From positions 1-24,276 of IMG/VR virus record IMGVR_UViG_3300030117_006115: a stretch of 24,276 nt of DNA, one strand, 5' to 3'. This DNA is from a virus. Below, in pieces: positions 21,688-22,446 of the stretch. The notes under the pieces were generated by a model. That model was not told the DNA's origin, made no database searches, and saw nothing but the letters and a program-made list of their open reading frames with translations. Position numbers and translations under genes: made by a program. Position 1 is the first letter of the stretch; every line of letters starts with the position of its first letter.

Positions 21688-22446
21688 ATGAAGATTTGCA
21701 GCCTATTTAGCGGAATCGGCGGATTGGAGCTAGGGCTTGAGGCCGCCGGAGTGGGCGAGACGCTCTGGCAAGTCGAGCAGGATGCTTTCTGCCGTTCTGT
21801 GCTGGCAAGGCACTGGCCCGATGCGAGGAGGTTTGAGGATGTCAGAACAGTTAGAGCTGGGGATATTGCTGGCGCAGAGCTCATCTGCGGGGGGTTCCCC
21901 TGCCAGGATATCTCAAAGGCAGGTGCAGGTGCTGGGCTGGCGGGGAGCCGCTCCGGCCTTTGGTGGGAGTTTTTGCGGATCGTTCGCGAGAGTTTGCCCC
22001 GATTCGTGGTCATTGAGAACGTCCCAAACATTGTTATCAGGGGGCTTGGCACCATACTCGGCCAACTTGCCCAAAGCGGGTATGATGCGCAGTGGGACAC
22101 TGTCAGCGCTCGAGCCGTCGGGGCTTGCCACCGGCGTGATAGAGTTTTCGTCATCGCATGGCTTCGGGGTTCTGCCGACGCCAACAGCATCGACTTACGG
22201 CAGCAGTCAAAACGGCACGCGGGCAGACGGCTCAACGTTCAACCAAGCGGGCAAGCCATCCCTTTGGACGATGGCCGTGCGCGGGGATTTAGGATCGACC
22301 CGTGGGAAACTGAGCGCGGAGTTTGTCCGGTGGATGATGGGGTTTCCAACAGGCTGGCTCGACAGCGAGCTTTAGGCAATGCAGTGGTTCCCCAAGTCGC
22401 GTATCGGGTGGGGTTGCGAATTCAACAACTAAAAGGAGAGATATGA
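21688..22446 (+). CDS. dcm: DNA cytosine-5 methyltransferase
   Basis: 252 residues with the C5-methyltransferase motifs in order: motif I FSGIGGLELGLEAAG (7-21), the AdoMet-binding Gly loop; motif IV GGFPCQDIS (68-76) with catalytic Cys72; motif VI VIENV (108-112); motif VIII RRDRVFVIA (149-157); and motif IX-X with RLARQRALGNAVVPQVAYRV at the end. The target-recognition region between VIII and IX is short (about 60 residues), so the enzyme is compact. It methylates cytosine in host or phage DNA, perhaps against restriction. Recognition sequence cannot be read from the protein. It is the first gene of the rightward operon. A second frame overlaps most of it (21839-22375). The gene ends 1 nt before the next ATG. 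Confidence 0.9.
   Translation: MKICSLFSGIGGLELGLEAAGVGETLWQVEQDAFCRSVLARHWPDARRFEDVRTVRAGDIAGAELICGGFPCQDISKAGAGAGLAGSRSGLWWEFLRIVRESLPRFVVIENVPNIVIRGLGTILGQLAQSGYDAQWDTVSARAVGACHRRDRVFVIAWLRGSADANSIDLRQQSKRHAGRRLNVQPSGQAIPLDDGRARGFRIDPWETERGVCPVDDGVSNRLARQRALGNAVVPQVAYRVGLRIQQLKGEI
21839..22375 (+). CDS. Out-of-frame 178-aa protein nested in the methyltransferase gene
   Basis: An ATG at 21839 in the +1 frame relative to the methyltransferase has GAGGAGG (21825-21831) 7 nt upstream, one of the best ribosome sites in the window. The 178-residue product contains GGSPARISQRQ, SWSLRTSQTLLSGGLAPYSA, LPKAGMMRSGTL, GVLPTPTASTYGSSQ and FVRWMMGFPTGWLDSEL. I recall these patterns (SWxTSQ, SGMMRxG, LPTPTAS, WxMGFPxGW) from many phage proteins annotated as methyltransferase-related and of unknown function. 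Each sits over a methyltransferase motif: PARIS over PCQDIS, RTSQ over IENV, EFSSS over RRDRVFVIA, and WMMGFP over the motif IX region. It may be truly translated or an open shadow of conserved motifs. Confidence is limited for that reason. Confidence 0.4.
   Translation: MSEQLELGILLAQSSSAGGSPARISQRQVQVLGWRGAAPAFGGSFCGSFARVCPDSWSLRTSQTLLSGGLAPYSANLPKAGMMRSGTLSALEPSGLATGVIEFSSSHGFGVLPTPTASTYGSSQNGTRADGSTFNQAGKPSLWTMAVRGDLGSTRGKLSAEFVRWMMGFPTGWLDSEL

Follow-up and report, generated by a model that had tools for sequence, protein, structure and literature searches.

A nested +1-frame gene within a phage C5-cytosine methyltransferase gene and its probable role as a small-domain subunit

A phage C5-cytosine DNA methyltransferase (MTase) is, in our assessment, very likely made of two subunits encoded in overlapping frames of the same DNA, the nested product (beta) being the small-domain partner of a catalytic chain (alpha). 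The locus lies in the virus record IMGVR_UViG_3300030117_006115, whose 24,276 bases, hereafter called the window, include head, tape-measure, tail, RecT-like and primase genes. Long nested genes on the same strand are rarely accepted in DNA phages and bacteria. The comparative data presented here make a strong case for one, and they come with a clear biochemical prediction.

The two products of the locus

Both frames are read from the plus strand. The alpha gene (21688 to 22446) encodes a large-domain polypeptide of 252 aa with motifs I-VIII and X. The beta ORF (21839 to 22375) lies wholly within it, in the +1 frame, and runs from the ATG at 21839 to a TAG ending at 22375, i.e. 178 codons and a stop. 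Its 178-aa product has a TRD-like LPTP region and a motif-IX-like C-terminus. A putative Shine-Dalgarno sequence, GAGGAGG (21825 to 21831), is supplied by the alpha codons GCG AGG AGG and is separated from the ATG by exactly 7 nt (TTTGAGG), in agreement with a preliminary description of this DNA made from its letters alone. The words which that description had picked out in the nested frame (SWSLRTSQ, LPKAGMMRSGTL, LPTPTAS and FVRWMMGFPTGW) are all present in beta. In agreement with the description, they overlie PCQDIS, IENV, RDRVFVIA and the residues immediately preceding motif X. More precisely, motif IV of alpha (PCQDIS, 21898 to 21915), with the catalytic Cys72 that is invariant in 70 homologues, reads PARIS in the beta frame, motif VI (ENV, 22015 to 22023, E110 and N111 invariant) reads RTSQ, and motif VIII (RDR, 22135 to 22143, R150 and R152 invariant) reads VIEF. 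The TRD-like region of beta begins at LPTPTAS (22172 to 22192), where P113, T114 and P115 are at least 90% conserved. Beta's motif-IX-like segment, KLSAEFVRWMMGFPTGWLD (22307 to 22363), lies over an alpha linker ending in VDDGVSNRLAR. The preliminary description had set MMGFPTGW over motif IX of the MTase; the position was right, but it is MMGFPTGW itself that resembles motif IX, and the MTase frame reads VDDGVSNRL at this place. Finally, the beta stop codon ends on the base that starts the first codon of alpha motif X (GNAVVPQ, 22375 to 22395, G230 invariant).

Alpha matches Pfam PF00145 (1e-42) and PHROG 363 (7e-71), and it has a match to M.HhaI over residues 3-158. The C5-MTase motifs I, IV (PCQ), VI (ENV), VIII (RxR) and X are all present in order, with Cys72, ENV and RxR kept in 70 of the 70 rows of the alignment. 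In ordinary C5-MTases, a small domain carries the TRD and motif IX. Both motif IX and the small domain were absent when we searched for them in the alpha chain, where residues 161-229 are predicted to form a low-confidence linker (pLDDT about 50, versus about 96 for residues 1-160 and about 90 for residues 230-252). The best solved match of the alpha model is M.HhaI (Z of 24.9, 206 aligned residues), with a superposition spanning M.HhaI residues 12 to 325. The model and this superposition indicate that alpha consists of a large domain onto which motif X folds back, and that it lacks a small domain, whose place is taken, in the prediction, by a disordered linker.

A search with the 178-aa beta protein, one of the checks proposed in the preliminary description, returned PHROG 1008 (3.5e-16). 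The second half of this family is also matched by the in-frame C-terminus of Tweety gp72, an MTase encoded in one frame. The beta segment KLSAEFVRWMMGFPTGWLD aligns with the position of motif IX in Tweety gp72 (probability 93%) and in Papez gp46 (86%), and weakly with motif IX of M.HhaI, KLHPRECARVMGYPDSY (E 0.0032, probability 10%), a segment whose sequence was checked against PDB chains. The M, G and P of this motif-IX-like end are each found in 69 of 70 rows. The beta profile had only insignificant matches among solved structures, no relative of solved structure was found for the TRD-like and N-terminal parts, and the model of beta by itself (pLDDT 61) found no match with Foldseek. Since the N-terminal half of beta overlies conserved alpha motifs, part of its similarity is inherited from alpha. 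As far as the sequence can tell, beta ends in a motif-IX-like segment and halts where alpha motif X starts, and it is probably the missing DNA-reading half of the MTase. In L008-L012 and other viral loci, the beta TRD regions carry variable counts of LPTPTA repeat units, and the alpha linker lengthens in step.

Openness and conservation of the +1 frame

Nearly all homologous loci were gathered through their similarity to alpha, with 6 of the 78 contributed by searches with beta, which avoids a selection for open +1 frames. As a null model, synonymous codons were shuffled within each alpha gene, which holds the alpha protein and the codon counts, but not the codon context. Across the 78 non-redundant MTase homologues, the +1 frame has no stop between motifs VI and VIII, where 141.7 are expected (the lowest shuffle had 121), and 4 stops between motif VIII and the position of motif IX, where 89.2 are expected. 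From the beta start to motif VI there are 61 versus 124.5, and these residual stops fit loci where beta starts later. Outside beta, the counts are 60 upstream (52 expected) and 101 after motif IX (69 expected). Frame +2 has observed/expected values of 122/154 (VI-VIII), 376/383 (VIII-IX) and 136/135 (before beta), and no depletion comparable to that of the +1 frame was seen in these loci either in frame +2 or in the three antisense frames. Stops in the +1 core were scored in three loci, two of which (L035 and L067) keep the MGFP motif within an open +1 frame, so only L055 looks truly interrupted. In the window locus alone, the core has no +1 stop versus 4.1 expected, and about 1 in 300 shuffles is equally free of stops. 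The expected numbers of +1 stops are present in a T4-like Klebsiella MTase (5 versus 5.0) and in the fused Alteromonas MTase described below (6 versus 5.4). The firmicute MTases picked as controls, which are also described below, turned out not to be clean ones.

The preliminary description had also proposed a comparison of conservation in both frames across homologous loci. Over 86 mostly divergent pairs of loci, the identity of the +1 product exceeds that of synonymous shuffles within beta, being 38.2% versus 24.8% between motifs VI and VIII and 25.3% versus 12.9% between VIII and IX, and no clear excess was found before or after beta in the same pairs. The close pair formed by the window and L007 is uninformative, because similarity is high in all frames and regions. 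Mean identity in the stretch between VIII and IX is 27% in the beta TRD region versus 14.5% in the alpha linker, and in the motif IX segment it is 57% in beta versus 44% in alpha.

Start signals for beta are enriched as well. Candidate +1 starts with a properly spaced Shine-Dalgarno match of at least 5 bases occur in 42 of 78 loci, versus 17.0 (sd 3.5) in the shuffles, and with a match of at least 4 bases in 73 of 78, versus 49.5. Where the +1 frame has an early stop, beta in many loci begins further downstream, at an ATG preceded by a good Shine-Dalgarno sequence, and an ATG located 57 bases 5' of the motif VI anchor recurs in many loci with +1 stops near PCQ. This pattern fits an independent initiation of beta. 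Double coding of alpha and beta thus appears, from these alignments, to be maintained in nearly all relatives, which makes the hidden gene look real. The depletion of stops, the excess of conservation and the enrichment of start signals make it very probable that one DNA specifies both proteins, as had been suggested.

Arrangements in relatives and origin of the overlap

The window locus and most viral loci have the nested arrangement, with motif X in alpha and motif IX in beta. Other examples are Salmonella phage S9-5, Acinetobacter phage ABMM1, the M. smegmatis phages ShroomBoi and SG4, and plasmids from Acinetobacter and Leptospira. In a second arrangement, seen in genes 89/88 of mycobacteriophage Cookiedough and in L193, L195, L197-L202 and L204-L207, the two genes overlap in tandem and beta carries motifs IX and X. 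In a third, represented by Tweety gp72 and Papez gp46, the MTase occupies a single frame, and in such one-frame relatives (L092) motif VIII is separated from motif X by the TRD and motif IX, all in one chain. In Tweety gp72 the segment with LPTP and MGFPxGW is read in the main frame, and Papez gp46 has MGLPRGW. Finally, MTases from Vibrio and Alteromonas plasmids have motifs I-VIII followed by motif X and by a beta-like C-terminal domain, in the same frame and without overlap. This fused domain aligns with beta over 100 columns (hhalign, 97.2%, E 3.5e-11), versus E values of 0.14 or worse in controls (reversed and 20 column-shuffled). Because it is free of any overlap with alpha, shadowing by alpha codons cannot explain its likeness to beta. 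The unusual order of motifs was observed in four MTases of marine gammaproteobacterial plasmids (L264:940-2139, L269:580-1824, L270:607-1785 and L271:523-1806), the C-terminal domain being beta-like by profile in the first three and less clearly so in L271.

We scanned bacterial genomes for beta with a 12-row subset of the 70-row beta alignment. Among the 80 loci picked in this way, an automatic classification found 61 to be nested; the remaining 19, when inspected, all proved to have MTase sequence in frame -1, including two at contig edges (L153, L161) and three with a stop in alpha (L143, L150, L166). We found no stand-alone beta in these 80 loci. The preliminary description had spoken of phage proteins that share the words of beta, often as stand-alone genes. 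These proteins, which carry the words of PHROG 1008, turn out to be nested ORFs annotated without the underlying MTase (L001, L005), and the stand-alone genes are thus an artefact of annotation, as exemplified by Rctr197k 201 and phPA-G CDS0044, which overlie an unannotated MTase. In Paenibacillus phage Likha, gp51 and gp52 (L268:1117-2154 and 1301-2005) are both annotated as cytosine MTases, one nested in the +1 frame of the other. In mycobacteriophage Llama, the nested locus (L091:1423-2182) appears in the annotation as two DNA methyltransferase genes, its alpha being broken across frames by comparison with ShroomBoi. A nested gene would account for many entries of phage databases that are labelled "hypothetical" or duplicated as "DNA methylase". 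It is a warning to gene callers, which routinely lose one of the two frames, and to single-gene views of such MTases, which would yield half an enzyme.

Some relatives have beta-like ORFs and keep motif IX in the catalytic frame. MTases of a Streptococcus phage (L260:1117-2259), a Lactococcus phage (L261:1117-2343) and a C. difficile plasmid (L263:1126-2199) have +1 ORFs of 150-165 codons, yet motif IX is encoded in frame 0. These ORFs match the beta profile (E 1e-11 to 1e-13 at Z=100,000), and their openness has P of about 0 to 0.03 by shuffling. The one-frame actinophage relatives have 7 stops between motifs VI and VIII of the +1 frame, versus 27.2 expected. Since both groups have beta-like ORFs in spite of a frame-0 motif IX, carrying this motif cannot be the only role of beta, which may have another. 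In the actinophages (L177-L186, L188, L190-L192, L196, L203 and L209) the +1 frame retains LPTP units, and in most loci a stop, mostly GTA-GAC (V-D in frame 0), occurs two codons before the first frame-0 LLPTP. These phages seem to have their TRD modules distributed over two frames.

The preliminary description suggested that the stand-alone family may have arisen by overprinting on a methyltransferase. This suits the N-terminal part of beta, which we take to be overprinted on alpha motifs IV-VIII. From motif VIII to motif X the opposite seems to hold, the MTase frame being the overprinted one: the segment with LPTP and MGFPxGW belongs to the main-frame small domain in one-frame relatives and, from its sequence, looks like the old small domain, so that the alpha linker between VIII and X is probably the younger reading.

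Proposed enzyme, alternatives and known two-part methyltransferases

We infer that frame 0 yields alpha, the catalytic large domain with motifs I-VIII and the returning helix of motif X, and that the internal Shine-Dalgarno sequence and ATG allow translation of beta from the +1 frame. Beta would provide the small domain that alpha lacks, i.e. the target-recognition region and motif IX, and the two would bind to form one active enzyme that probably methylates the phage's own DNA and thereby marks and protects it.

The preliminary description named as the alternative a shadow frame, kept open by chance by the conserved MTase motifs and a high GC content, without a product. The overlap of the N-terminal half of beta with conserved alpha motifs, from which some of its similarity comes, and the 1 in 300 shuffles that are equally open in the window locus would suit this view. 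Chance openness was nevertheless rejected by the synonymous shuffles with their frame and region controls: when the alpha proteins and their codon counts are held constant, the stops expected between motifs VI and VIII are entirely missing from the 78 loci, whereas the Klebsiella and fused Alteromonas MTases have theirs. Internal Shine-Dalgarno sites are enriched, and the Vibrio and Alteromonas fusions have a beta-like domain that is not overlapped by alpha. We therefore regard a shadow frame as extremely improbable.

Programmed frameshifting, with ribosomes passing from alpha to the +1 frame and back to make one long MTase instead of two proteins, would be in keeping with the single chain of one-frame relatives, where the TRD and motif IX stand between VIII and X, and with the TRD units in two frames of actinophages. 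Yet beta is conserved over motifs VI-VIII, a region that would go unread in the +1 frame if ribosomes shifted after VIII, internal start sites are enriched, motif X would require a second shift back, and mycobacteriophage relatives have two overlapping genes; we find this explanation quite improbable. Beta might also be translated and serve an unrelated task, such as counter-defence, given that no solved structure was found to be related to its TRD-like and N-terminal parts and that the firmicute beta-like ORFs lack motif IX. This too seems improbable, as the motif-IX-like end is present in all but about 1 of 70 rows, alpha is without a small domain, natural fusions join the two in one chain, and beta never occurs without alpha in the 80 genome loci. 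A broader version of the two-subunit reading, rather unlikely in our view, is that two-frame coding of C5-MTases is a general and long-lived phage strategy, in which small-domain modules are kept off the catalytic frame, swapped as LPTP repeat units, and split between frames in actinophages and firmicute phages. If so, one DNA segment could yield MTases of changeable make-up or specificity.

We found no description of this nested family in the open-access literature searched, and its breadth and selective maintenance in phages are the part that we did not find described there. PHROG 1008, labelled "DNA methyltransferase", mixes nested beta ORFs with the C-termini of one-frame MTases, and the nested nature of the gene is not recognised in it. 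The two MTase genes of Likha resemble the window locus and have their +1 nesting annotated; the passages that we found in a related genome paper (PMC6070908) do not discuss it. Among characterised enzymes, M.AquI is a tandem split C5-MTase whose small subunit holds motifs IX and X (PMC3404938). Like the proposed enzyme, it consists of two polypeptides forming one C5-MTase, but motif X of the window stays in alpha, and it is the Cookiedough 89/88 pair that has an M.AquI-like arrangement. M.EcoHK31I is a C5-MTase of two polypeptides, the large one with motifs I-VIII and X and the small one with motif IX (PMC3404938). Alpha resembles the larger polypeptide of M.EcoHK31I (and of M.EaeI) in carrying motifs I-VIII and X, and beta would correspond to the small one with motif IX, judging from its profile matches to one-frame MTases and from the fusions. 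Lee et al. (1995) reportedly located the gene of the small M.EcoHK31I polypeptide within that of the large one, in a different frame, and the beta gene of the window is likewise nested in a different frame of alpha. The specificity of M.EcoHK31I is YGGCCR. The two differ in that the predicted TRD of M.EcoHK31I is assigned to its alpha polypeptide, whereas in the window the TRD-like region is in beta and the alpha segment is predicted to be disordered. The window gene is a phage gene, likened to M.EcoHK31I by architecture and not by sequence, and by this analogy its locus fits a known kind of two-polypeptide C5-MTase.
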